IMG/VR virus record: IMGVR_UViG_3300030430_004251
Coordinates: 1-38,905 of that record
DNA from: a virus
Reading direction: 5' to 3' (one strand)
Length of the DNA: 38,905 bases
Numbering within the stretch: position 1 is the first letter of the stretch; each line of letters begins with the position of its first letter. Position numbers and translations under genes: made by a program. A model generated the notes under the pieces. It did not search any database, was not told where the DNA came from, and worked only from the letters and a program-made list of their open reading frames with translations. Below, piece by piece: positions 2,387 through 36,780 of the stretch.

Positions 2387-4311
2387 ACCCGGTAAAGATC
2401 GAGCCCAACGAGTTTTACCCGCTGCCTCCAGACTACCTCGAACTGGACGTTGAAGGGCAACGGCGCGCTCGTCTGAACGCATGTCGTCAGTTTCTAGTTC
2501 CCGGTCTTACGACCAGAGAGCAAGCAGACGCTTATGTGGCATCTCTTGATTTCTTTGATAACTACTATCTTGTTGCAGATCATGACGTTGATTTCGAACC
2601 TATGTTCTATGACGACGATCCGCTGCCCTCGCCAACTTTCCATTACGACATCGCGCGGCAGTGGGCCGCAGAGAGATTGTCTATTGCGATCGCACCCCGA
2701 GGGTCAGCAAAGTCTGCGCTGGTAAAGAAGACTCTGCTTCTAGAAATGCTTGCCCGTCCGATGTTTTCGGTGATGTATGCCACCTCTACCGGTGACAACA
2801 CCAAAGGTGTAGGCCAAGCACTGAAAGACCAGTTCCTGCACAACACACGGATCAACGACGACTTCGGGGCAGAAACCCCCCAAGGTCGACTGCACCCCAA
2901 ACGTGGCGAGGCGCCTTTCGGCAATACCCACATGCAGTTGCTGAACGGCTCGTGGATCCGCTGCATTTCTGCAGAATCCAAGCAGCGTGGTGGTCGCCCT
3001 CGCCTCTACGTTCTTGATGACCCTGAGTACGATCCGAAAGCCTCGACATCTATGTCGCTCATCCGTGAGTACATGGATCAGCTGCTCTTCAAGGTTGTTC
3101 TGCCCATGGTGATGCGCTCAGGCTGCGGTGCTCGATGGCTTGCAACCTTTGTATCTCGTCGACACTTTGCATGGCACGCTATGGATGTGAATGAAGGCAG
3201 GGCACGTGACCCTCGTTTCAACAAGTGGGATCGCATTGTTATTAGGTCGGAGTTTGAAGATGAGCAAGGAAAGCCCCAAAGCTGCTGGCCAGAAATGTGG
3301 CCCGCCACCACAGAAGAAAGACTTGAGCTGGCAGAAAAAGATAGCCGCTACGCCAAGTGTGTGTCTCTCGAAGAAATCAAAGAAACTATCGGGATTCCAA
3401 ACTACCTCTCTGAGTACATGGCAAAGCCTGGCTCAGGTGACGAAGTCTTCTTCCCGAATCTAGAAGAAGAGCGTCACGGCTACTGGTACGAGAACACTGA
3501 CGACCTGCTTGAGGACGATCCACGCAACAGCGCTTCAATGATCTGCTGGCACAAAGAGGACACGATTGAGAAGACCCCTTTGCGGTCTTTCTTGACAGGC
3601 TGCAGGATGTTTATGGCTGTCGATACGTCGTACACCGCAACCAAAGACTCAGACTCCAAGGTCTGTACTCTGATGGCAGTCAACCAAGACAACGAGTTGT
3701 TTGTGCTCGACATGTGGTCTGCTCAGACCATGCAGCAACATTTGATCAGCGCAGCCCTGCACATGGCTGACCGATGGCTTTGCCCTACCGTCCACGTTGA
3801 GGCAATTAAAGAAGGCATCAGTGTTTACAACGACTTGTACTCAATCATCAGTACCCGAGCGTCTGATATGGCGGACGTCCAGCACCTCCCCAAGGTCAAG
3901 AAGTTCAACCCCGGCATGACCTCCAAGTCGGCAAAGATTGCCTCTTTGCTCCGCAGGTTTGAGTACGGCAAGATCAAGATGCCTCTGCGCGAGAGATACA
4001 CCCGTCCTTGGAAAGCACTGTTTGACCAGATCGAGGAGTTCAACCCAGAAGCCCGAGATGGGGGTCTGCAACACGACGACGAACTTGATACCGTGTCCAT
4101 GTCGATGTACATCATCCGAGGCAAGCCGGGTAGGTCCCCCACTGCCGAAGATTCTGCGGATGACTTGATGGAGCGGTTCCGCAACGGAGAGACTCACGAC
4201 GACTTTGGATTCCCCATAATCCACGGTCTGGACATCCGGAACCTGACTCCTGACGATATAGCGGCTCACATGAGCCAGAATAAAGGCCCCGATGGAAGAA
4301 GCAAAGTCTGA
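2383..4311 (+). CDS. terL: Terminase large subunit (packaging ATPase/nuclease)
   Basis: The motor that cuts and pumps phage DNA into the prohead through the portal. From CTG 2383 the product is 642 residues. The ATPase half has a Walker A-like APRGSAKS at about 104-111 and a Walker B LYVLDD at about 208-213. The nuclease half shows the RNase H-like acidic pattern: Asp in FMAVDTSYT, Glu in VHVEAIKEG, and DDELD near the C-terminus. The first conventional start, GTG 2536, has no ribosome-binding site and would remove 51 residues, including the well-formed stretch FYPLPPDYLELDVEGQRRAR. Length fits large terminases of podoviruses. Identity is sure; the start codon is inferred. Confidence 0.93.
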   Translation: MNPVKIEPNEFYPLPPDYLELDVEGQRRARLNACRQFLVPGLTTREQADAYVASLDFFDNYYLVADHDVDFEPMFYDDDPLPSPTFHYDIARQWAAERLSIAIAPRGSAKSALVKKTLLLEMLARPMFSVMYATSTGDNTKGVGQALKDQFLHNTRINDDFGAETPQGRLHPKRGEAPFGNTHMQLLNGSWIRCISAESKQRGGRPRLYVLDDPEYDPKASTSMSLIREYMDQLLFKVVLPMVMRSGCGARWLATFVSRRHFAWHAMDVNEGRARDPRFNKWDRIVIRSEFEDEQGKPQSCWPEMWPATTEERLELAEKDSRYAKCVSLEEIKETIGIPNYLSEYMAKPGSGDEVFFPNLEEERHGYWYENTDDLLEDDPRNSASMICWHKEDTIEKTPLRSFLTGCRMFMAVDTSYTATKDSDSKVCTLMAVNQDNELFVLDMWSAQTMQQHLISAALHMADRWLCPTVHVEAIKEGISVYNDLYSIISTRASDMADVQHLPKVKKFNPGMTSKSAKIASLLRRFEYGKIKMPLRERYTRPWKALFDQIEEFNPEARDGGLQHDDELDTVSMSMYIIRGKPGRSPTAEDSADDLMERFRNGETHDDFGFPIIHGLDIRNLTPDDIAAHMSQNKGPDGRSKV

Positions 4312-4546
4312 GTTACAGGTGCATCCGAGCCACGTTGTGGTTCCCCTTGCCTTCTTCGAGAGGGTTATGGAGGTCTACTACTCCGTAAAAAATACAGAAA
4401 TTGTGGCGCCAAAGCCCCCCTTACAGAGTCCTGCCTCTCAGAGAGTCGAAGATAGTCTGAACCTAAAGTCAATGACTGTTGTCCGACAGCTCGTGCCAGA
4501 GGGGTACGTGCCGAAGGGTGTAGCGGCAAAGGACGAAGATGCCTAA
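4292..4546 (+). CDS. Small protein between terminase and portal
   Basis: An 84-residue protein of unknown function. It starts at ATG 4292, inside the last 20 bases of the terminase gene, with AAAGG five bases upstream, and its end overlaps the portal start by 8 bases, so it is locked into the packaging operon. The sequence has a predicted helix around residues 12-35 (VVVPLAFFERVMEVYYSVKN), a Pro-rich linker and a C-terminal segment with VRQLVPEGYVPKG. It could be a small packaging accessory factor, but nothing in the sequence proves this. Confidence 0.75.
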   Translation: MEEAKSELQVHPSHVVVPLAFFERVMEVYYSVKNTEIVAPKPPLQSPASQRVEDSLNLKSMTVVRQLVPEGYVPKGVAAKDEDA

Positions 4547-6527
4547 CGATACAATCCAGCTTACTAAAGACCGTGATGCGATCTGCAAGATTATTGACCG
4601 GCACATCGACCGCGAAGAAGCAAGGATGTCTTACCGGTACACGACATGGTCGTTGGCTTGGTATTACCTCAACGGCGCTCGTCGCTTCGATGTGTTTGAT
4701 CCAGACAACGGGCTAGTACAGCCTCACTTCTTAGACGAAGATGGCAACATGGAGTTCCAAAGCCAGGAACTCCTTGCGGCTATTGATCGGGTATCCGGCC
4801 AGATCGCTTCCATGGACGTCCGGCCAAAAATCAATCGGACAGGCTCCTCTCTTGCCTCCATTCGTGACCGAGCTATTGCTCAGGTCATCGCAGACGGGGT
4901 GATTCCTGTTGACCGAGCAGATGAGGCACTCACTGAGTTTGCTCACATCTTTACAGCACTGGGCTCCTGCGGTATCACCGGGCACATCGTGGATCACCCA
5001 GTGGTGGGATTGACCACGGACTTTGAGGTTGTCCACCCTAGAGAGTTGTACCCGTTCCCTTCTTTGGGCCAGGACTACACCAAACAGCGTGGTCTGATCC
5101 GTGAGCGCATTGTGCCTCTCGACTTCCTTACCAAGAAATACGGTCGAAAGATCAAGAGCAATCTCGACAAGATGTTCTACTACGAGGTCGAAGCCGGCGC
5201 CGCCATGACTGGCGTTGACGAGTATGACCGCCTCGACCACACAGGAGCAGGGCCTACCTACAACAACGGCCACGGCTCCCAGGCTTTGTCCGAAGAGAAG
5301 ACACGTGCCGGTCTTGCCAAGATCCGAGAACTGTGGATCTACGGGCACCGCAACATGGTGGAGCGTTACGTCCTCATGTCCGGCGAGTATGTCATCGAAG
5401 ACATCGACTTCGAGGGTGCAGAGGTTTACTGCCCCATCGGGTTTGCCCGGTTCATGGAGACAGGCGCTTTCCACGGCGCAGGGCTGTTTGACCTGTTGTT
5501 CTCCATCAGTCGTGAGATGGAGAAAATGCTGAAGAGCCTCTTCAACAACATCCGCGACATCGACCAGTACGGCATTCTGGTTATGCCGCAGGGCCAGTTC
5601 AACGAGCGTGCTGCTCTACGAGATGTGGGGCGCGGTCTTCGTGTTCTGCCTTACGAACCAGATGCAATCGACCCCGGCTTCCGTCCGTTCAACATTGCTC
5701 CGTTCAACTCCGGAGACATCCCCGGCAAGACTGCTGCGTTTGCTAAACAGCTGATGGAGTCCATCAGTCCGTACCGCGACCTGATGGAGAACAAAGGTCG
5801 AGTAGACAGTGCTGCGGGGCTTGGCTTCCTTGATGAGAAGAACCGCCAGCTGATGGCAGGACCCATGCGTGCAGTTGAGCGTGCATGGTCCCAGTCACAC
5901 CGATCTTCTTTGGCATCTGCTTCCAGAACTCTGTCGCGTACTCGACGTGCTCTGCCCGTTAGTCAGTTGACTTTGGATCTTGCAGGGGCGATTGTGGACC
6001 CAAGCGCAGGGGCAGTTTCGTTTGCAGAGAATCCTTTGCCCAACTTGTCTAGCCTTTCTGTAACCATCAAGGGCACCCAGCCTCGATCAGAGATTGCACG
6101 TAAGCAAGAAGCACTGCAGTTGATGCAAATGCCGGGACTTTCTGATCCGACACGCTTCATTTTGTTTGCGCTTCAGGAGGGGTTGGACTTTGCTATGTAC
6201 ATGGAAGAGGAGAAAGCGGCGTACGAATCTATTGTTCGCAACATCCTCTTGCTGTTCGCGGACGGCGAAACACCGGGGGAAATTGTTTTGACGCCTCACA
6301 CAGTTCTACCAGAGCTGCAGATGAGGGTCCTATCCTCTTTCATGACGTCACCCGTCATGAGCCTGTCTTCAACTGAAGTGCAGGATGAATTCAAAAAGTT
6401 CCGTGAGTTCTTGTTCCGAACCATGGGCACCATGCTCCCAGCAGGTGTCCCGCTGCCTGAAGAGGCCGCAATGATGGTTCAGCAGGCACAGCAGGGACAA
6501 CAACAACCCCAAGGAGTCCAACAGTAA
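4539..6527 (+). CDS. Portal (head-tail connector) protein
   Basis: A 662-residue protein placed directly after the terminase and before scaffold and capsid, where the portal belongs. Portals form the dodecameric ring through which DNA enters and leaves the head. The N-terminal third (YRYTTWSLAWYYLNGARRF, then repeated helices with RVSGQIASMDVRPKI) and the long middle helices (ISREMEKMLKSLFNNIRDID) are typical of podovirus-type portals, and the length is within their usual range. The C-terminus is a Gln-rich tail (MVQQAQQGQQQPQG). AAAGGA lies five bases before ATG 4539. The next gene starts within its stop (TAATG at 6525). Confidence 0.85.
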   Translation: MPNDTIQLTKDRDAICKIIDRHIDREEARMSYRYTTWSLAWYYLNGARRFDVFDPDNGLVQPHFLDEDGNMEFQSQELLAAIDRVSGQIASMDVRPKINRTGSSLASIRDRAIAQVIADGVIPVDRADEALTEFAHIFTALGSCGITGHIVDHPVVGLTTDFEVVHPRELYPFPSLGQDYTKQRGLIRERIVPLDFLTKKYGRKIKSNLDKMFYYEVEAGAAMTGVDEYDRLDHTGAGPTYNNGHGSQALSEEKTRAGLAKIRELWIYGHRNMVERYVLMSGEYVIEDIDFEGAEVYCPIGFARFMETGAFHGAGLFDLLFSISREMEKMLKSLFNNIRDIDQYGILVMPQGQFNERAALRDVGRGLRVLPYEPDAIDPGFRPFNIAPFNSGDIPGKTAAFAKQLMESISPYRDLMENKGRVDSAAGLGFLDEKNRQLMAGPMRAVERAWSQSHRSSLASASRTLSRTRRALPVSQLTLDLAGAIVDPSAGAVSFAENPLPNLSSLSVTIKGTQPRSEIARKQEALQLMQMPGLSDPTRFILFALQEGLDFAMYMEEEKAAYESIVRNILLLFADGETPGEIVLTPHTVLPELQMRVLSSFMTSPVMSLSSTEVQDEFKKFREFLFRTMGTMLPAGVPLPEEAAMMVQQAQQGQQQPQGVQQ

Positions 6528-22728: not shown

Positions 22729-23127
22729 ATGCCAGGTGAAAAACCACTACCAATCGACGTAACGCCTGACTTCATGCAGACCGTTGTGTTGAACTTCAAC
22801 TCCGCTGTCGGAACCGACCAAGCCCTGTTCTTTTGCGAGCGTGACACTGTCATCGACAGAGCCAGTCTCGTGTTTACAACGGGCGACGGTGACGACACGT
22901 ACGCACTCCGCCACTGCACCTCTGGAACTGCACCAGGATCGGGCGTCCTGTTCACTGATGTAGTCACTGCAGTTGTTGCGAACACTCCTAAGCACTTCAC
23001 GCTGGTTGAAACAACCAACATTGTGCCTGCGGGTTCATTCATTGCTTTGGATTTGACTCAAAATGGTGGATCATCTACTGCCAAAGAGGGCATCATCCAA
23101 CTGCGGATTCGTACTAAGCGGCGCTGA
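22729..23127 (+). CDS. Small beta-rich structural protein, paralogue B
   Basis: A 132-residue beta-rich protein, GGAG six bases before the ATG. It shares with the preceding gene the VPAGSxIxLDL motif, a preceding Thr/Val-rich strand, and the general layout, with a diverged N-terminus (MQTVVLNFNS). The C-terminus is basic (RIRTKRR). A duplication followed by divergence is the simplest explanation. Probably a capsid decoration or fibre-associated protein. The next gene begins in its stop codon (TGATG at 23126). Confidence 0.78.
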   Translation: MPGEKPLPIDVTPDFMQTVVLNFNSAVGTDQALFFCERDTVIDRASLVFTTGDGDDTYALRHCTSGTAPGSGVLFTDVVTAVVANTPKHFTLVETTNIVPAGSFIALDLTQNGGSSTAKEGIIQLRIRTKRR

Positions 23128-26100
23128 TGTCCGCGATTCAACAGAGCTCGTTTGCGCCGGTAACGGCGTACGATGCTCCGAACGTACTCTTCACTCAGTT
23201 ACTTGAGGATGAAGCGACGTTCGAGTCGTTCCTTGATACATTCTTGGACGACTCACAACTTACCCCCAAGCAGCGTGACAGTTATGTGGATCGACTGAAG
23301 GCTGAGTACGGGGGAGGTAACAAGGTCCAGGAGGCACTAATCGGGGTTGCCACAAACCCCTTAGTGCTTCTTGGATTCTTGATCAGCCCGCAGATCGGGC
23401 GCAACCTTGCCAACAACGGACAGGCTTTCCAGCACTTTGTAAAGGGTGCGGACGGTCTTGGTTTTATGGCACTTAAGAACTTCAAGCAGATGTTCCAGAA
23501 CACGCCTCTGGACCCTGCTCTGCGGCAGGTGGCGAACAGTGTTCGACTCTCCAACCGGATCTTTGACGACATCATGGTGCCGGCGGAAGAGAAGTTCATC
23601 AAGCAGTTTGGCATCACCCGCAATCAGTTCCACGACCCTGCCAGTATCCCTGATAAATCCATGAGAACAAGGGTCGAAAGGCTCAAGCGAATGATGGTCG
23701 CTGACATGGACGGTCAATTGCTTTCATCAGCAGAAGACCGTACCGCTGTCCTCAGGGATATGAACATCAATCTTGTCAGTCGAGACGGCACCACAAAAAC
23801 ATTTACTCTGAACCAGGATGCGCTGGCCGAAGTGACAGAGTCTTTTGGAGCAAAGGGGCTGAATAGCGATGAGCGTAGGGCGCTGTTGACCTACCAAAAG
23901 TATCTCAATAGTGATGAGATAGAACAAGCAACTCAGAATCTAAGCCTGTCTCTCAGAGATCAGTTGTTTAGTTCTGCGTTTAGAACCCTAGACAATTCTA
24001 AGGGAGTGCTACCTGCATCTGATTACGGGATAGTCAAGCTGTCCGATTATCAGGCAGTGCGAAACAGTGCCGCCTTCAAGGCGTTGATCCCCCAGAAGAC
24101 AGTCTCGGGGGCTACAAAGTTTGACGGGACCAAATCAGATGTCTCATTGTTGCGTAGGGTATTGGAGAAGGTAGACCCCAAGGCAAAGGCATACATAAGT
24201 CAGCAAGACATTGCTGGCATGACTGTGTCTCCAAACTTTGTTATGCGTGATGCCGCTGGCAAAGTAAAGAACCCTTCGTTCGATGACGGGAAGGTTGCAT
24301 TTGATGGGGTGTTCATAAGCCTAGATGATTCGATCAAAGATAGTGGGCTGCTGGGCATCAAAAAGCGAGTTGTAAACTTCAGAGATGCAGCGACATCTGG
24401 TCCAATGATCGAAGAGTTCGAGACCAAGACGGGAGATACTTTCCGAGATGCAATTGAGAAAGCCTACCCTGGGTACTTTGAGTTCAAGTCTTCAATACAA
24501 CAAACCCTAGACACTCAGTTTGCACGCATGTACGGCAAGTCAAACGTCACTGCCGCTGACATACGTGAGTTCAGGCAAATGGATCTTGCGACAAGAGAGG
24601 CTCGAGCTGCAGAGATTCTTGACACTGAAAAGATTGTGCGGATCAAAGACGGACTACAGAACCGCAGCAACTACGGGTTTACAGAGGGAGACGCGTTTAT
24701 AGACCGGCTGCTGAGTCAAGATACTCGAGACTTGATGTACGCAGGCAAGCTCTCAGACAACGATTTTACCAAAGAAATCCGTAGAGGGTTCGCAGCTACC
24801 GTAGTCTCCAACTATCTGCCTCGCAACACCAGCGAGTTTTACAAGATGAGGACTCCGGTGGGGGCAACTTTGGAGGGTCTTGATGAGTTGAGAGGTCGTC
24901 TTACTCTTCTCGCTCCTGATGAAACACCTGCAGGGGTTGCAGGAACTGGACGACTGGTTGCGACAAACCGGCAAGTACAGCGTCAAGGGCGCCAAGTGAT
25001 GCACCCTGACGACATAGATGCTTTGGAGGCTGATTTTGCAGCCCTTAATCTTGATCCCGTAAAAAGAGAAGTAGCCCTAGGCAAAGACATTGAGATAAAT
25101 ACTGTCTTTGACGATCTTCGCTTTGCTTCTCAACGAGCGATGCAAGCTGCTCAGGATGACACTATTGCTCTGCGCCGGCTTGACCTATCCAAGACTCTAT
25201 TCCGATCTAGAAGCAGTTCTGCTAAAGACTACGCTTTGTTTATTGAGGCCCCTGGGTCCAACGTGATTGCAGCTCAAAGGAACATCATTCCAAACATTAG
25301 CGACACCTACGGCAATCAAAAGTTACCTGCTCCGTACAAAGAGAAAAAAGGGGGACTTGTTTTTGGGACTGACAAAATCCCTTTGATGCAAGTCTTTGAT
25401 AAGACAGGCGCGAAAGCCCCCCCTGGCGGGTTCAATCTGGCCCACGTGTTGGAGCAAGGCTCTGAGCTGATTGCTTATGGAGGACGTAATGATCCCAACA
25501 GCGTGGCGCGCGGAGTCAAAGCCCGTGAGTTGTTGAGCGAGGTGGCAATCCCCAAAGCTTTGGGGGTGCAGAACGAACGCACGGGTCTGGGGCGTCTGGT
25601 GATCGGTACTGCTCAAGCGCAGGCCAGCCGGATGAAAGACTCTGCTTTCATGAAAGGCATCGGTAGTATGGGGCCTTTTGGTAAGGCTGTCCGAGAACAG
25701 GTTGAGTATTTTGCTCAAGCAGATACGGGCGCCCTTGCTTCTGCTACTCAAGCCAATGCCTCTGGGTATCTCTACACCTCCCACCTGGGTTTGAATGTTG
25801 CATCTGTTATCCAGAATCTAACTCAACCTTTTCTGCATGCGTCTGCCTATGTGGGCACAGGCAATGTCCTTCGAGGGTACAAAGGAACCTTTGATGACTT
25901 GTACCGTTATGCTCAGAATCGTCAGAAGATCAAGCAGGCACAGCTCACTCCTTTCCAAAAAGAACGGCTGATCCAAGAGTCATTTGAGTTCCCTGATGAG
26001 ACAGGTTTGACCAGCGGTATCTTGGATGACCTTGACCGTCTGGTTGCTAACCGGGGTATGGAGGTAAGCAAGTTCAAGTTCTACACCCAAGAACTGCCCA

Positions 26101-27401
26101 TGCTTCTGTTCGAGAAAGGTGAATGGGTCAACCGGATTACCGCTACGCACTCTATGAAGAACGCGTATATACGACAAGGATTAGCAAAGAGAGGCGGAGA
26201 CGGAAGAGCTATATTTTCTAACAAAGCGACTCGTGAATCGTTTGCTCGTGACGCATCGTTCTTGGTGGAGGAGACTCAGTTTGGTTCTGATATTCTGAAC
26301 ACCCCTGCTCTGTTTATGCAGGGCACGTCTAAGGTCTTGAACACTCCTGCATTGCTGGAGAATCCTCTGATTCGTCAGTTCCAGACGTTCTCTCTTCGAG
26401 CGCCCTTGGCCTTGATGTTTACGGGTCGGATGCTTGGAGCTACTCGAGGCGTGCGAGGCACCCGAGTTGAGCTGCCCTACTTGTTGGGTGACTCCATGCG
26501 GATGCTGGGGACCTCCGCTCTGATCTACGAAGCCGGCAAGCCATTCGCATTCGACCCCAGTAGTGGGGGAGCTGTGACTGCGATGACGCAGTTCTTCAAC
26601 CCTGAGAGGCTGGCTGAGGGCAAGTTCCCTATGCGAGGCCCTCCGATCGTATCTATCGCCACAGACAGCATGCAGGGGCTTCTAGGCGGCGACATGAACC
26701 TTGTAGTGAATGCTGCGGTGCGAACACTCCCCGGTGGCCTTGCCATCCAAAGAGCTATGGGGTCACTTCCAAACCTCAGAGACGACCCATTCTTGTCGTT
26801 TATTGGAGAGGCACAAAAGACATACGCTGATTACAGCAAGATAAACTCAGACGGGCGAGTTCCTGTGTTCAAAGGAACGGGTCAACTTGTTGATTATCAA
26901 AGTCCAACTGAGATGGTCCTGCGAGGACTTGGTATAAACATGGCTGGCGTACGGAACACGCGAGACATTGATGGCTACATCAGCAGTCAGCGTGAGAAGT
27001 TCAACCAGATGAGACGGTCTTATCTGGATCACCTCTTCGCAAACAACGTAGGGAAAGCCGAGTCTATTAGAGCACAGTTCAAGCGAATCTACGGGTTTGA
27101 TCTACCCGTCACCAAACAGCAGGTGGACTCGTATATTCGTCAGCGTGAAGTCCCGCGCTCGGAGCGCATGATGGATCGTCTGCCTGTTGAGCTGAAGTCT
27201 TACTTCCGACAGACCTTGGACCCCGAACGGCTACAACTGACTCAACAACAGCTACAGATGAAAACCTCTTTCCAGAGAACAGCACAGCAAGCAGAACGGG
27301 CTCCAGTGGCTGTCACACCCGAGCTAGCAGCGCAGCTGCAGCGAGAGATAGCAGCGACAGAGCAGCAACGAGAACTCTTCGAAGGCTTTACAGGATTTTA
27401 A
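23127..27401 (+). CDS. Giant internal virion / DNA ejection protein candidate
   Basis: A 1424-residue protein, of a size similar to T7 gp16 (about 1318 residues), the largest internal core protein. It is almost all helix with few strands. A hydrophobic stretch at about 70-95 (IGVATNPLVLLGFLISPQIG) and helices at about 885-910 (LGLNVASVIQNLTQPFLHAS) could touch membrane. The C-terminal 60 residues are Gln-rich (LQLTQQQLQMKTSFQ). I do not see the Glu-Ser-Gly pattern of a lytic transglycosylase or other peptidoglycan-cutting motif. The second half resembles long uncharacterised regions I associate with polyvalent phage proteins; that is memory, not a search. Confidence 0.75.
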   Translation: MSAIQQSSFAPVTAYDAPNVLFTQLLEDEATFESFLDTFLDDSQLTPKQRDSYVDRLKAEYGGGNKVQEALIGVATNPLVLLGFLISPQIGRNLANNGQAFQHFVKGADGLGFMALKNFKQMFQNTPLDPALRQVANSVRLSNRIFDDIMVPAEEKFIKQFGITRNQFHDPASIPDKSMRTRVERLKRMMVADMDGQLLSSAEDRTAVLRDMNINLVSRDGTTKTFTLNQDALAEVTESFGAKGLNSDERRALLTYQKYLNSDEIEQATQNLSLSLRDQLFSSAFRTLDNSKGVLPASDYGIVKLSDYQAVRNSAAFKALIPQKTVSGATKFDGTKSDVSLLRRVLEKVDPKAKAYISQQDIAGMTVSPNFVMRDAAGKVKNPSFDDGKVAFDGVFISLDDSIKDSGLLGIKKRVVNFRDAATSGPMIEEFETKTGDTFRDAIEKAYPGYFEFKSSIQQTLDTQFARMYGKSNVTAADIREFRQMDLATREARAAEILDTEKIVRIKDGLQNRSNYGFTEGDAFIDRLLSQDTRDLMYAGKLSDNDFTKEIRRGFAATVVSNYLPRNTSEFYKMRTPVGATLEGLDELRGRLTLLAPDETPAGVAGTGRLVATNRQVQRQGRQVMHPDDIDALEADFAALNLDPVKREVALGKDIEINTVFDDLRFASQRAMQAAQDDTIALRRLDLSKTLFRSRSSSAKDYALFIEAPGSNVIAAQRNIIPNISDTYGNQKLPAPYKEKKGGLVFGTDKIPLMQVFDKTGAKAPPGGFNLAHVLEQGSELIAYGGRNDPNSVARGVKARELLSEVAIPKALGVQNERTGLGRLVIGTAQAQASRMKDSAFMKGIGSMGPFGKAVREQVEYFAQADTGALASATQANASGYLYTSHLGLNVASVIQNLTQPFLHASAYVGTGNVLRGYKGTFDDLYRYAQNRQKIKQAQLTPFQKERLIQESFEFPDETGLTSGILDDLDRLVANRGMEVSKFKFYTQELPMLLFEKGEWVNRITATHSMKNAYIRQGLAKRGGDGRAIFSNKATRESFARDASFLVEETQFGSDILNTPALFMQGTSKVLNTPALLENPLIRQFQTFSLRAPLALMFTGRMLGATRGVRGTRVELPYLLGDSMRMLGTSALIYEAGKPFAFDPSSGGAVTAMTQFFNPERLAEGKFPMRGPPIVSIATDSMQGLLGGDMNLVVNAAVRTLPGGLAIQRAMGSLPNLRDDPFLSFIGEAQKTYADYSKINSDGRVPVFKGTGQLVDYQSPTEMVLRGLGINMAGVRNTRDIDGYISSQREKFNQMRRSYLDHLFANNVGKAESIRAQFKRIYGFDLPVTKQQVDSYIRQREVPRSERMMDRLPVELKSYFRQTLDPERLQLTQQQLQMKTSFQRTAQQAERAPVAVTPELAAQLQREIAATEQQRELFEGFTGF

Positions 27402-27402
27402 G

Positions 27403-27510
27403 ATGCACAAAAAAGGCGGATGTGGCTGCCCAGGCAGCAAGAGAAAACCAGCTCCCAAGAAGAAGACAGGCGGCATCAAGCTGCTGAACCGAGGACGACG
27501 TAAGCGTTGA
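27403..27510 (+). CDS. Polybasic minigene 1 (35 residues)
   Basis: A 35-residue protein, 14 of them Lys or Arg, one base after the stop of the giant internal protein; AGGA lies 8 bases before the ATG. It reads MHKKGGCGCPGSKRKP and ends LLNRGRRKR, with a CGC pair that could bind metal. It is the first of the tiny basic proteins here and overlaps the next gene by four bases. Probably nucleic-acid binding. Unknown family. Confidence 0.62.
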   Translation: MHKKGGCGCPGSKRKPAPKKKTGGIKLLNRGRRKR

Positions 27511-28031
27511 TCACAGTAGAGCAAGTCAAGCAGGAGATTCGTAACTGGACAGAGAACTATCTCGATGTCCCAAGCGATCACTACAACGGTAGTAAGCCCT
27601 GCCCATTTGCCAAGAAGACCCTGGACAACAACGAGCACCGCATCGAGGTATCGGCAGAACACCCTGCTAGGTGGTACCAAGAGTTTGCGGAGGACAGCAA
27701 GAAGATCTACATCATCGCCTACCAGCCTGACACGATTGGCTTGTCAGAGGCAGTAGAGGAACTGAACCTGAAGTGGGCACAAGACGACGTTTGGGGTATC
27801 GCATTCGAGCCAGGAGAGGACGAACCCGAGGACGACGGCAACGACCCTGAGCAGTGGGGGAGTGTGACTGATGAGTCGTACCCCATGCTGCTGATCCAAT
27901 CACTATCAGAGACAAACAATCTGTCTCTGTCTCTTGAGAAGAAAGGCTACTACAACAAATGTAGCCCTGATTTTATGGACTATGTACAGTCCAGGAAGGA
28001 TTTACACAATGGCAGGACGCGGAAACGGTAA
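27507..28031 (+). CDS. Acidic protein of unknown function
   Basis: A 174-residue acidic protein starting at TTG 27507, overlapping the previous stop (TTGA). GAGG is 12 bases upstream, so the start is weakly supported and coupling probably drives it. It contains two alpha/beta-type segments (IRNWTENYLDVPSDHY, then KKIYIIAYQPDTIGLSEAVE), an Asp/Glu run (GEDEPEDDGNDPEQWG) and a final region YYNKCSPDFMDYV. It stands out among basic neighbours and might neutralise or chaperone them, which is speculation. Its last 23 bases overlap minigene 2. Confidence 0.72.
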   Translation: MITVEQVKQEIRNWTENYLDVPSDHYNGSKPCPFAKKTLDNNEHRIEVSAEHPARWYQEFAEDSKKIYIIAYQPDTIGLSEAVEELNLKWAQDDVWGIAFEPGEDEPEDDGNDPEQWGSVTDESYPMLLIQSLSETNNLSLSLEKKGYYNKCSPDFMDYVQSRKDLHNGRTRKR

Positions 28032-28095
28032 GAAGAAAACAGGTAAGAAGAAGAAGAAGATGGCCAAGGTCACTAAGAAGGTCAAGAAGAGCTAA
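28009..28095 (+). CDS. Polybasic minigene 2 (28 residues)
   Basis: A 28-residue protein, half of it Lys/Arg (MAGRGNGKKKTGKKKKK, then VTKKVKKS). AGGAAGG lies 8 bases before ATG 28009, one of the best ribosome-binding sites in the region, which argues it is translated despite its size. It begins inside the preceding gene in another frame and ends at a TAATG junction. No fold expected; likely an unstructured nucleic-acid-binding peptide. Confidence 0.6.
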   Translation: MAGRGNGKKKTGKKKKKMAKVTKKVKKS

Positions 28096-28253
28096 TGGCT
28101 AAGAAGAAAAAAGGTAAGAAGGACGCCTGCTACCACAAGGTGAAAGCAACCGCCAAGGTCTTCCCTTCTGCGTACGCGTCTGGTCGCATTGTGCAGTGCC
28201 GTAAGGTCGGTGCCGCTAACTATGGAAACAAGAGTAAAAGGAAGAAGAAGTAA
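28095..28253 (+). CDS. Polybasic minigene 3, Cys/PSAYASG protein (52 residues)
   Basis: A 52-residue basic protein beginning at TAATG. After a Lys-rich start it reads ACYHKVKATAKVFPSAYASG followed by RIVQCRKVGA. I recognise this Cys...PSAYASG...CRK pattern as a small domain that recurs in phages and some large DNA viruses, function unknown. The two cysteines may bind metal. The C-terminus is again Lys/Arg-rich. It is joined to the next gene by TAATG, so the set is translated as one coupled unit. Confidence 0.68.
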   Translation: MAKKKKGKKDACYHKVKATAKVFPSAYASGRIVQCRKVGAANYGNKSKRKKK

Positions 28254-28408
28254 TGGCTATGCGAAAAATGGGTAACGGAAACGGCAACGGCCGTGGTAAC
28301 GGTAAGAAGAAGTTGACCGGTAAACAAAAGAATTTGCCTGCCAGTCTCCAGAAAGTCATCTTGAAGTCCAAGGCCAAGAAGGCTAAGGGCGGCAAGAAGA
28401 AGAAGTAG
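28253..28408 (+). CDS. Polybasic minigene 4 (51 residues)
   Basis: A 51-residue basic protein from the TAATG at 28251. The N-terminus is an Asn/Gly repeat (MGNGNGNGRGNG), followed by a short predicted helix (LPASLQKVILKSKAKKA) and a Lys tail. No cysteine. The stop TAG overlaps the GTG start of the next gene (TAGTG). Unknown family; the design matches its neighbours. Confidence 0.6.
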   Translation: MAMRKMGNGNGNGRGNGKKKLTGKQKNLPASLQKVILKSKAKKAKGGKKKK

Positions 28409-28644
28409 TGGCCAAGAAGAAGTCTGCTACGTCCGGTGGTCTACGCAAATGGTTCGCCCAGAACAAAGGCAAGGGCTGGATTGACTGCAAGACCGGTAAG
28501 CCTTGCGGTAGGAGCGGCAAGAAGGACAAGAATCGTCCTTATCCTGCTTGTCGCCCTACTAAGGCTCAGTGCACCTCTGCCGCCAAGCGGAAGAAGGGTC
28601 CTGCACGAATCTCTTGGAAGAAGAAAACAAAGAAGAAGAAGTAA
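28408..28644 (+). CDS. Polybasic minigene 5, conserved Cys/Trp domain (78 residues)
   Basis: A 78-residue protein starting at GTG 28408. It holds a conserved-looking core: GLRKWFAQN, then GWIDCKTGKPCGRSGKKD, then RPYPACRP and GPARISWKKK, with four cysteines suitable for a zinc site. I recall this pattern from small uncharacterised proteins in marine phages and large DNA viruses. Lys runs at both ends make it strongly basic. It is coupled to its neighbours by TAGTG and TAATG junctions. Confidence 0.72.
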   Translation: MAKKKSATSGGLRKWFAQNKGKGWIDCKTGKPCGRSGKKDKNRPYPACRPTKAQCTSAAKRKKGPARISWKKKTKKKK

Positions 28645-28937
28645 TGGCGCGCAAGAAAAAAGGGTCAATGAAAGGTATGTCGGTAAAGAGCGGGCACAAG
28701 CGGCCCACTTCCAAAGGCGCTGGTATGACCAAGAAAGGGGTCAAAGCGTACCGACGAAGAAACCCTGGTTCAAAGCTTAAGACTGCTGTTACTGAAAAAA
28801 GTCCTTCGAAAGGCCGCGCAAAACGACGAAAGTCCTACTGCTCACGGTCCAAAGGACAGATGAAGATGCATGGTATTAACTGCTCTAAGACTCCTGAGAA
28901 GCGTATCTGCGCTGCTCGCCGGCGCTGGAGGTGTTGA
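28644..28937 (+). CDS. Polybasic minigene 6, KAYRRRNPGSKLKTAV domain (97 residues)
   Basis: A 97-residue protein from ATG 28644 at a TAATG junction; the open frame upstream is the previous gene read out of frame. Its core reads GVKAYRRRNPGSKLKTAVTE, then AKRRKSYCSRSKGQMK and AARRRWRC. I recall this as a recurrent small domain of unknown function in marine phages and some giant viruses. It is very rich in Lys/Arg with three cysteines. DNA binding or compaction is plausible but unproven. The stop is followed at once by the lysozyme gene. Confidence 0.75.
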   Translation: MARKKKGSMKGMSVKSGHKRPTSKGAGMTKKGVKAYRRRNPGSKLKTAVTEKSPSKGRAKRRKSYCSRSKGQMKMHGINCSKTPEKRICAARRRWRC

Positions 28938-28938
28938 T

Positions 28939-29778
28939 ATGGTTGATCCGCCTCGACTCCCAAGAGTCAACGACTTAGCTGTAGGTTCTGCCCCGCAAGG
29001 AAACCTTGCGGCGGCTACTGCAGGTGAGTTGTATGACATGTTCAATCGTTTTGTCCGAGACGCGCTTGGGACAGGCGAGACGGATGAGGCGAGAGCTCTC
29101 CGCGAGAGAAACTTCAGTAGCCCGACTTACAACTTTGAGCATGAGGCGAAACTAGAGAGAGCTCGTGAAATGGGACGAGCAGCTCAAGCGGTTGAGGAGA
29201 TGGACTTCCCTGTCCCCCACCCTGATGACCCTCGCAATCAAGCGCAACCCCGACCTCAGGAAGGGCTCGATGAGACTGTGCTCAATGCAGCACGTAACTA
29301 CATCCAGAGAAATGAGGGGTTTAGAGATGCTGCATACCCCGACCCTGTTCGGGGTGCAAGGACCCCCACCATTGGATTCGGCACTACTCGAAATCGTATG
29401 ATTGATCAGTATTTGGAGGGGCAAGGCCTAGATCCGGAAGCTGTGTTTACTATTGGGGGAGGCACAAGAATCACCCGACAGCAGGCTCGAGATATGGAAG
29501 ACCTGTATATGCGGAGATCTCTTCGAACTCTGCAAACAAGACCAGATACTCGTTGGTTTAATGATCTCCCAGTTGAAGCTCAGGTAGTCATGCTTGACAT
29601 GACGTACAACCTGGGTTCTCACTTCAGCTTCCCAAACATGTTTAGGGCTCTAGAGCGTGGAGACTTCAACACTGCTGCTGATGAGATTCTAAATACAGGC
29701 CCTAACGGTTATGCATCTCAGGTAGGCAACCGAGCGATCAGAAACGCCAATCGCATGAGGGCTCTAGCTGGTGACTAA
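28939..29778 (+). CDS. GH24-type lysozyme with N-terminal extension
   Basis: A muramidase that cleaves peptidoglycan between MurNAc and GlcNAc. From ATG 28939 (GGAGG seven bases upstream) it has 279 residues. The T4-lysozyme-like catalytic domain starts at about residue 112: Glu126 in QRNEGFRDAAYPD, Asp135 nine residues on, and Thr144 in TPTIGFG, matching the Glu-x8-Asp spacing of the family. The C-terminal lobe (VVMLDMTYNLG) is also typical. The first 110 residues are a charged, Pro-rich extension that ordinary endolysins of about 165 residues lack, and there is no signal peptide or anchor. It could be the endolysin or a virion-associated lysozyme; position after virion genes leaves both open. 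Confidence 0.88.
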   Translation: MVDPPRLPRVNDLAVGSAPQGNLAAATAGELYDMFNRFVRDALGTGETDEARALRERNFSSPTYNFEHEAKLERAREMGRAAQAVEEMDFPVPHPDDPRNQAQPRPQEGLDETVLNAARNYIQRNEGFRDAAYPDPVRGARTPTIGFGTTRNRMIDQYLEGQGLDPEAVFTIGGGTRITRQQARDMEDLYMRRSLRTLQTRPDTRWFNDLPVEAQVVMLDMTYNLGSHFSFPNMFRALERGDFNTAADEILNTGPNGYASQVGNRAIRNANRMRALAGD

Positions 29779-30696: not shown

Positions 30697-31285
30697 CTTT
30701 TATAGCCCCCAACAGTTCAATCAGTTTGCTCAACCAACAGGAGGTTTTGCTAGGCCGATGCCGAGCAGGCCTTTTGCCTCGCCTCCTATGCCTACTGGCA
30801 ACATGATGGGTTTTAGCGGAGCTCAAAATTCTATGCCGTTTCCTGTGCTGCCACCGCAAGTGCAGCCGGGATTTAACCCTGAGCCTACGGGTAGTCCTGG
30901 GCCTGGCATGGCATACGACTCGCCTGCTGAAACCTCTCCGCCGCCTCCCCCTGCTCCTCCAAGCGGAGGCGGTAATCAGGGTACGAATACAGGTCAGACC
31001 ATGACAGGGCTAAGGGCTCTTAACCCGCAAGACATAGACCTGTCACGCTTTGGGGGAGGCATTATCTCTCCTGCAATGCAGTCAGCTGCGGTGCAAATGG
31101 GCATGATCTCTCCTGGGGCACTTAACCTTTTGGCTGGTATCCGAAACACCGGAGGTCCAAGAGGAGACTTTGCACGTCGGATGCAACGGCAATTTGCTGA
31201 GATGGATAGAAGGAACCGTCTGCGTCAACGACAAAGAGCTGCAGGATTCCGATCGCCACTCGTGGGCTCCATCATCTACGACTAA
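30689..31285 (+). CDS. Proline/glycine-rich protein
   Basis: A 198-residue protein. The first 105 residues are low-complexity, rich in Pro, Gly, Phe and Met (FARPMPSRPFASPPMPTGN; SPPPPPAPPSGGG) and probably unstructured. The last 90 residues are more ordered (RFGGGIISPAMQSAAVQMGM) and end in a very basic helix (RRMQRQFAEMDRRNRLRQRQ). I recognise no family. It could be a minor virion protein or a nucleic-acid-binding adaptor. It is coupled to the sigma-like gene by TAATG at 31283. Confidence 0.72.
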   Translation: MSSFYSPQQFNQFAQPTGGFARPMPSRPFASPPMPTGNMMGFSGAQNSMPFPVLPPQVQPGFNPEPTGSPGPGMAYDSPAETSPPPPPAPPSGGGNQGTNTGQTMTGLRALNPQDIDLSRFGGGIISPAMQSAAVQMGMISPGALNLLAGIRNTGGPRGDFARRMQRQFAEMDRRNRLRQRQRAAGFRSPLVGSIIYD

Positions 31286-31806
31286 TGTCACCCGCTGAAG
31301 ACCACATGGGGTACTTGGTTGTCTGGACTAAAAGAGCAGTCAAACAGTCTTGGTTTCCGCAGTGGTCATTCAATGAGATATTGTCTGAGGCTTTCATGCG
31401 CGCAGATCATCTGCTCAGTGAGAAGTATGACAGCAAGCGAGGCAACGTAACCACTTTCTTGTCGGCATGTCTGCGGACAGACTTGTCGTACAGATATCAA
31501 CGTTCGTTAGGGAAGAGCATACATTGGGAAAAGAAAGAGTGCGGAACTGGACGCCGAAGGGTTTGGACCCAACGCGTGCCGTCAGTAGAACACATCGAGT
31601 CGCTCGCTCCTGCCTTCGAGATCCCCGAAGATCTCGACCTAGAGGCGGCAGAGCTCACCCCCAGGGAAGCTCACATCGTGCAGCTCCTACTGCAAGGCAA
31701 GACTCGCGTAGAAATCGCACAAGATCTTGGAGTATCCCCAAGCCGCGTAAGCCAGTTGATCCTTCATAGAATCAAAGAGAAGATAGAGCCCTATCTAGAC
31801 GGGTAG
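31285..31806 (+). CDS. Sigma-factor-like transcription regulator
   Basis: A 173-residue protein resembling a small sigma-70-type factor. Residues about 29-75 look like region 2 (EILSEAFMRADHLLSEKYDS, then NVTTFLSACLRTDLSYRYQR), which would contact core polymerase and the -10 element. Residues about 122-168 look like region 4, with a helix-turn-helix (ELTPREAHIVQLLLQGKTR, then IAQDLGVSPSRVSQLILHRI). A variable basic loop joins them. Length fits small sigma factors. It is the last gene of the plus-strand late block and meets the minus-strand block tail to tail. It probably redirects host RNA polymerase; the target promoters cannot be seen here. A LuxR-like regulator is the alternative. Confidence 0.75.
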   Translation: MSPAEDHMGYLVVWTKRAVKQSWFPQWSFNEILSEAFMRADHLLSEKYDSKRGNVTTFLSACLRTDLSYRYQRSLGKSIHWEKKECGTGRRRVWTQRVPSVEHIESLAPAFEIPEDLDLEAAELTPREAHIVQLLLQGKTRVEIAQDLGVSPSRVSQLILHRIKEKIEPYLDG

Positions 31807-36649: not shown

Positions 36650-36780
36650 TATCCGCCGCCTTTGCCGCCTTTGCCGCCTTTGCCGGCCTTTTTAGTCTTG
36701 CTTCTCGGCTTTGCTTTGGTGCTGGGCTTGCCTTTTCCGGCACGTGCGGCAGCTTTCATCAACTTCTTTTTCTCTGGCAT
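36649..36780 (-). CDS. Lys/Gly-rich small protein (43 residues)
   Basis: A 43-residue protein with a strong site (AAGGAGG about 6 bases before ATG 36780). About 37 percent of residues are Lys or Arg. It starts MPEKKKLMKAAARAGKGKPS and ends in GKGGKGGKGGG, encoded by a 9-base tandem repeat. It resembles the polybasic proteins at 27403-28937, but lies in the minus-strand block and is coupled to the next membrane gene by TAATG. Likely nucleic-acid or membrane-surface binding; function unknown. Confidence 0.65.
   Translation of the reverse strand: MPEKKKLMKAAARAGKGKPSTKAKPRSKTKKAGKGGKGGKGGG
36655..36681. repeat. 9-base tandem repeat in the Lys/Gly gene
   Basis: Three exact copies of GCCGCCTTT in plus-strand orientation, encoding Lys-Gly-Gly units on the minus strand. 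Length variation by slippage would keep the frame. Confidence 0.85.

Follow-up and report, generated by a model that had tools for sequence, protein, structure and literature searches.

Stop-start coupled genes for small polybasic proteins in a phage genome and their fused relatives in T4-like cyanophages

Introduction

The head of phage T4 carries the small basic internal proteins IPI, IPII and IPIII, which are packaged and injected together with the DNA. The genes ipII and ipIII adjoin the lysozyme gene e, and their products share the N-terminus MKTYQEFIAEA. The families treated in this work are already known as DUF and PHROG entries without an assigned function, and a search of a limited literature collection returned no functional statement for either DUF5872 or DUF6321. 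Here we analyze a locus that combines these families in a row of separate small genes. The window, meaning the whole stretch of DNA analyzed, is a complete IMG/VR virus record of 38,905 bases, in which an earlier note had pointed out a series of tiny polybasic proteins between virion genes and a lysozyme gene.

Results

Layout of the locus

The region from 27403 to 28937 holds six polybasic ORFs of 28-97 aa, with Lys and Arg making up 35-50% of each protein, and one acidic ORF, all on the plus strand (Table 1). Coordinates and composition thus confirm the description of six such proteins with about a third to a half Lys plus Arg, and the acidic protein of 174 residues does sit inside the set. 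The four TAATG or TAGTG junctions that had been listed are present as well: adjacent genes share one base at p2/p3 (TAATG), p3/p4 (TAATG), p4/p5 (TAGTG) and p5/p6 (TAATG), linking p2 through p6 in one chain. The overlap between p1 and the acidic ORF is TTGA, p2 starts before the acidic ORF has ended, and a spacing of one base separates p6 from the lysozyme gene. The large ORF directly upstream gave no match in Pfam and PHROG searches; judged by its size and position, it is possibly an internal virion protein.

Table 1. Coordinates of the cassette genes and their neighbors in the window
Feature	Coordinates	Strand	Description	Match or basis
1424-aa upstream neighbor	23127..27401	+	large late protein	ORF
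p1	27403..27510	+	35 aa, 40% K+R, MHKKGGCGCPGSKRKP..., tiny polybasic protein, CGC core	ORF
Acidic protein	27507..28031	+	TTG start, 174 aa, net -15; function unknown	phrog_28122 E=4e-12
p2	28009..28095	+	28 aa, 50% K+R; least certain gene	ORF and TAATG junction to p3
p3	28095..28253	+	52 aa, 35% K+R	PSAYASG module (F3); phrog_727 E=9e-21
p4	28253..28408	+	51 aa, 35% K+R, K-rich, LPxxLQKxI core	ORF with TAATG and TAGTG junctions
p5	28408..28644	+	GTG start, 78 aa, 36% K+R	WxDCKTGKPCGR...YPACRP module (F5)
p6	28644..28937	+	97 aa, 35% K+R	DUF6321 module (F6); PF19846
Lysozyme-domain protein, downstream neighbor	28939..29778	+		PF00959 E=4e-8; phrog_7 endolysin E=4e-15

The phage itself appears to be without isolate relatives, as judged from its terminase (2536-4311) and a large ORF (4539-6527), neither of which gave a tblastn match among 50,697 phage records at E<=1e-5. 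Outside the cassette, a minus-strand ORF of 43 codons at 36780 encodes another tiny polybasic protein (MPEKKKLMKAAARAGKGKPSTKAKPRSKTKKAGKGGKGGKGGG), located in an oppositely oriented region with annealing-protein and exonuclease genes. A low-complexity, collagen-like protein at 10600-11166 matches many tail-fibre PHROGs. A sigma-factor-like protein at 31285-31806 (phrog_1740, E=1e-7), encoded a few genes past those for lysozyme and metallophosphoesterase, is a possible late-gene regulator.

Coding potential of the small frames

The stop-start coupled chain comprises five ORFs of at least 25 aa each, while the longest coupled chain was two ORFs in 1000 dinucleotide shuffles of the stretch and three ORFs in bases 1-27000 of the window. 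Under the filter used, 7 of the 454 window ORFs of 25-125 aa are polybasic, and six of these seven lie inside 27403-28937; the six include a longer in-frame version of p2 and one 25-codon out-of-frame ORF, and leave out p6, since the first start codon in its frame (GTG) is located farther upstream.

Related loci allow for a comparison at the codon level. In p5, which is 96% identical to its homologue in locus L091, synonymous differences affect 43 of 51 sites and nonsynonymous differences 4 of 183. The respective values are 53/68 and 21/220 for p6 against L011, and 21/33 and 6/123 for p3 against L092. This pattern indicates that p3, p5 and p6 are real coding genes, the best-conserved frames being under strong purifying selection.

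Module families

We designate the p3 type (PSAYASG) as F3, the p5 type (CGR) as F5 and the p6 type (DUF6321) as F6. The p6 protein belongs to DUF6321 (PF19846), scoring 50.5 bits against a gathering score of 28.5 over profile positions 4-72 of 72. The PSAYASG core of p3 matches phrog_727, phrog_38880 and phrog_3477. With the DUF5872 profile (PF19197), p3 aligns at positions 6-44 with 16 bits, below the cut-off of 27.5, and p5 gave no match. The p5 orthologue of the Prochlorococcus phage P-SCSP2 passes the cut-off with 53.3 bits (E=5e-14) at positions 55-112. Since these two alignments cover successive parts of the profile, DUF5872 reads as a p3-like module followed by a p5-like one, in the same order as the window genes. 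The alignments indicate that p3 and p5 are related to the N- and C-terminal halves of DUF5872, respectively, without being members of the family. Combined with a DUF5872 protein listed for the algal virus CpV-BQ1 (PMC12085832), the composite profile lends indirect support to the proposal that the cores recur in large DNA viruses.

The cores of p6 and of the other modules hold invariant residues beyond charge, which in p6 include non-basic ones. The AlphaFold model of p6 has a pLDDT of 85.5 and three helices, by which p6 is predicted to be a basic domain with a fold of its own, unlike a disordered protamine. When compared with a viral structure library, the model gave confident named matches that were all DUF6321, including the 'Virion protein' of S-SCSM1; a fold search of the PDB returned no match at E<=0.001. 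Sequence searches of the PDB, run with single proteins and with profiles of all three modules, found no chain either. The AlphaFold model of p5 was set aside due to its low confidence (pLDDT 63).

Gene association and neighborhood

The loci compared were picked by similarity to p5 or p6, and all rates below therefore apply among relatives, not among all phages. All three modules occur in 79 of the 171 loci and records scanned, a count in which the window and its locus copy are merged. Where F3 and F5 are separate genes, they lie on the same strand and at most 1 kb apart in 104/104 loci, and at most 200 bases apart in 92. These profile searches, which had been suggested as a check on whether the genes stay together in other phages, indicate that they do. 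Among separate-gene loci, the order is F6-F3-F5 in 59 and F3-F5-F6 in 17. In F5 loci with at least 3 kb on either side (n=28), F3 is present in 28/28 and F6 in 17/28. Standalone homologues of the modules have median net charges of +17, +23 and +29.

Further tiny polybasic ORFs accompany the modules, with a ten-fold higher density around the cluster (0.30 per kb) than elsewhere in the same loci (0.03 per kb) and at least one such ORF in 95/142 loci. In L349, a contig assigned to a marine Myxococcales MAG, F6, a p1 homologue, F3, an acidic-like protein, a p4-like protein and F5 fall within 1.5 kb, with the p1 homologue (MAHKKGGCGCPHKMKSKPRKKSPKKKGKK) between the p6-like and p3-like genes. Short p4-like proteins are found in L349 (7058-7174) and in L091 (3323-3451), in the latter case beside F3, F5 and F6. 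Proteins homologous to the acidic one (phrog_28122) are encoded in 12 further loci with modules, and the resemblance in L349 was judged by eye. Taken from the sequences compared, the same gene row recurs in unrelated marine phages.

The neighbors in module loci are terL, endolysin, major capsid and tail genes. In P-SCSP2, F3, F5 and F6 are all located between the scaffold and capsid genes, and in P-SCSP1u the DUF6321 gene, the only module gene in the stretch covered, directly follows the capsid gene. Such placement among late genes (terminase, capsid, endolysin) in relatives agrees with the earlier suggestion that the cassette is made late.

Distribution

Among isolate phages, F3 was found in 365 records, mainly T4-like cyanophages, F6 in 70, including Synechococcus, Prochlorococcus, Microcystis and Pelagibacter phages, and F5 in 7, mainly Roseobacter phages. 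Each of the four scans of viral contigs for module proteins yielded at least 600 matches. The cores thus do recur in marine phages, as stated in the earlier note, whose remark that such a set would be unusual in a tailed phage was wrong, because marine tailed phages carry these families very commonly. In the cellular collection, relatives of p6 occur in 35 of 84,980 species genomes of bacteria and archaea, nearly all on marine MAG or single-cell contigs, and we read these 35 loci as viral, not cellular. Loci L327-L361 are phage-like contigs that seem to have been placed in MAGs whose hosts are unrelated (Myxococcales, Pacearchaeota, Chitinophagales, Flavobacteriaceae).

Fused forms in T4-like cyanophages

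Among ORFs of at least 150 codons in the viral-contig and phage loci, 88 fuse F3 with F6 and 12 fuse F3, F5 and F6. The 271-aa gp114 of P-SSM2 (ACY76002) is an F5-F3-F6 fusion with a weak F5 domain, and gp114 of Syn9 (ABA47082) displays a similar three-module arrangement. In gp029 of S-SCSM1, F5 is found at 64-126, F3 at 208-250 and F6 at 443-517; E-values for the module domains of the gp114 and gp029 proteins refer to a search of ten sequences.

The linkers of the fused proteins are enriched in the motif [ILVMF]xE[GAS], which occurs before F3 in 38 cases against 10.7 in shuffles (20/70 at one fixed position) and before F6 in 20 cases against 6.5 (14 at one position). This motif could mark sites at which the prohead protease sets the modules free, or reflect a shared ancestry of the linker ends. 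As shared ancestry could give the same pattern, we treat the processing site only as a lead.

The segment W..KYKKSIDC..PKGFSQRAHCQGRKKK forms a further module at the N-termini of long cyanophage-type module proteins (L033, L086). A part of it, SINCKKPRGFSERAHCAGRRKRKK, is also present in a tiny standalone protein of the small-phage-type locus L303 (725-877).

Virion proteomes and capsid-targeting leaders

The three-module gp029 of S-SCSM1 is annotated as 'virion protein', and the authors of that study identified 45 proteins by mass spectrometry in CsCl-purified virions (PMC9602691). In the available portion of the record, the terminase neighboring gp029 is without this label, from which we infer that the label means detection by mass spectrometry. 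In S-CREM2, ORF137 (108049-109521) carries an F6 match and ORF160 (128342-129235) carries F3 and an F5-like segment. Table 3 of the S-CREM2 virion proteome lists 7 unique peptides for ORF160, 8 for the adjacent basic ORF136 and 4 for ORF137, the last at a coverage of 4.1% with peptides that need not fall in DUF6321, and its authors warn that abundant proteins can co-purify (PMC10665884). The F6 protein of S-SZBM1 (SSZBM1_192) was not found in the accessible part of the 30-protein virion list of that phage, and the sections available of the P-SCSP1u cryo-EM paper report no small internal protein. The published data, all of which concern the fused or long relatives, support module proteins being packaged virion proteins. 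Usable tryptic peptides number none for p2, one each for p1 and p6, and two each for p3 and p4; hence, standard proteomics could miss p1-p4 and p6.

A capsid-targeting leader of the T4 type (MKTYQEFIAE) is absent from p1-p6. SSZBM1_192 starts with a T4-like leader, MKTFKQYITEA, and ends with DUF6321. Among the 105 long module proteins, 12 have such a leader, compared with 40 among 1152 controls (Fisher p=7e-4). We rejected the leader as a general explanation: it is enriched, yet found in only ~11% of the long module proteins. In S-SZBM1 (L367, OL473597), SSZBM1_191, encoded next to SSZBM1_192, starts with the T4-leader-like MKSFKSFLSES, and SSZBM1_194 has an internal TYREFIAE.

Discussion

We consider it moderately probable that the cassette encodes late, cationic, partly Cys-rich small proteins that are packaged in the head, with modules that are separate and coupled here and fused in T4-like cyanophages. 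Support for this explanation comes from the reality of the genes, their association, the fusions, the late context and the presence of fused relatives in virions. The small cationic proteins would be made late from stop-start coupled genes and, like their fused relatives, would be packaged. Inside the head they may sit on the DNA, where their charge would neutralize or compact the genome; one set of the six polybasic proteins has a net charge of about +121, and with ~64 copies per protein, 10% of the genome phosphates would be balanced. The cassette proteins probably coat or compact packaged DNA. They may also enter the cell along with the genome. The acidic protein might act as a counter-ion or chaperone, keeping its polybasic partners soluble before packaging.

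A different role would be that of virion-carried or late effectors that would act, once injected or late during infection, on the host nucleoid, RNA polymerase or ribosome, with charge binding nucleic acid and the Cys/Trp cores giving specificity. The invariant residues beyond charge and the predicted fold of p6 are in line with such a role. Cyanophage virions also carry other non-structural proteins, such as a cytidylyltransferase, whose gene adjoins module genes in P-SSM4 and lies near them in S-CREM2. We nonetheless regard host effectors as doubtful, as no characterized effector or PDB entry was matched, the genes lie among morphogenesis genes, and the phages have unrelated hosts.

Proteins that aid assembly or packaging in the prohead or on the motor, scaffold-like or as terminase or portal cofactors and not coating DNA, would fit the position of the genes beside terminase, scaffold and capsid genes in P-SCSP2, CRP-2, Syn9, P-SSM2 and S-CREM2, and terL being the closest large downstream gene in at least 8 loci. 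This reading is distinctly unlikely given that mature virion preparations contain the fused forms and that pure cofactors would not require several separate polycationic proteins. Even less credible is a role in lysis, in which cationic peptides made with the endolysin would weaken the membrane. The cassette directly precedes the lysozyme gene in the window, and endolysins are frequent neighbors elsewhere, but the sequences show no hydrophobic stretch that would span a membrane, P-SCSP2, P-SCSP1u and the T4-like phages have the genes away from lysis genes, and relatives are found in virions. That A-rich sequence merely yields spurious lysine-rich frames can practically be dismissed: synonymous saturation with conserved protein, homologues in hundreds and a stop-start chain far above shuffles refute it for p3, p5 and p6, and it is possible for p2 alone, which is very short, lysine-rich and without a conserved core or a homologue among the loci compared.

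Returning to packaged cationic proteins, we tentatively hypothesize, with rather low confidence, that a single modular nucleoprotein system is common to marine tailed phages and algal giant viruses. Small phages would encode it as separate coupled genes, and T4-like phages would make one long chain. Inside the head, the prohead protease would cut this chain just before each module, at hydrophobic-x-Glu|Gly sites, and thereby release the same set of small DNA-binding proteins. As far as we found, what is new is that the split genes, the gp114-type fusion and the algal-virus DUF5872 form one module system that is virion-associated; our limited literature collection held no prior record of this link or of which modules the proteins detected in virions contain. 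The F3, F5 and F6 families are among the commonest unknowns of marine viromes. Three labels of 'unknown function' hereby turn into one testable question: how marine phages handle their packaged DNA, and why a dedicated set of cationic proteins is so common among them.

The known systems differ from the cassette in distinct ways. In the Pfam model, DUF5872 is one protein, whereas the window has two genes with p4 between them. DUF6321, of which p6 is a member, is a Pfam family without function and silent on partners or virions. T4 internal proteins show no sequence relation to the modules. Pfam searches gave no match to histone, HU or protamine, and neither the profiles nor the p6 fold found one in the PDB. 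The pure protamine analogy put forward earlier fits poorly: with its predicted fold and with invariant residues that are not basic, p6 makes the 'protamine' label too simple. The gp114-type protein (phrog_727) consists of the same three modules as p3, p5 and p6, and its genes lie in the morphogenesis region. In contrast to the separate window ORFs with their intervening stop codons, it is a single fused polypeptide with partly acidic linkers. The condensing proteins of large DNA viruses can be compared with the cassette, whose p6 is predicted to fold, by charge and role: those of the ascovirus P64 type (PMC6163548) share with it a strong positive charge and a presumed DNA-neutralizing role.
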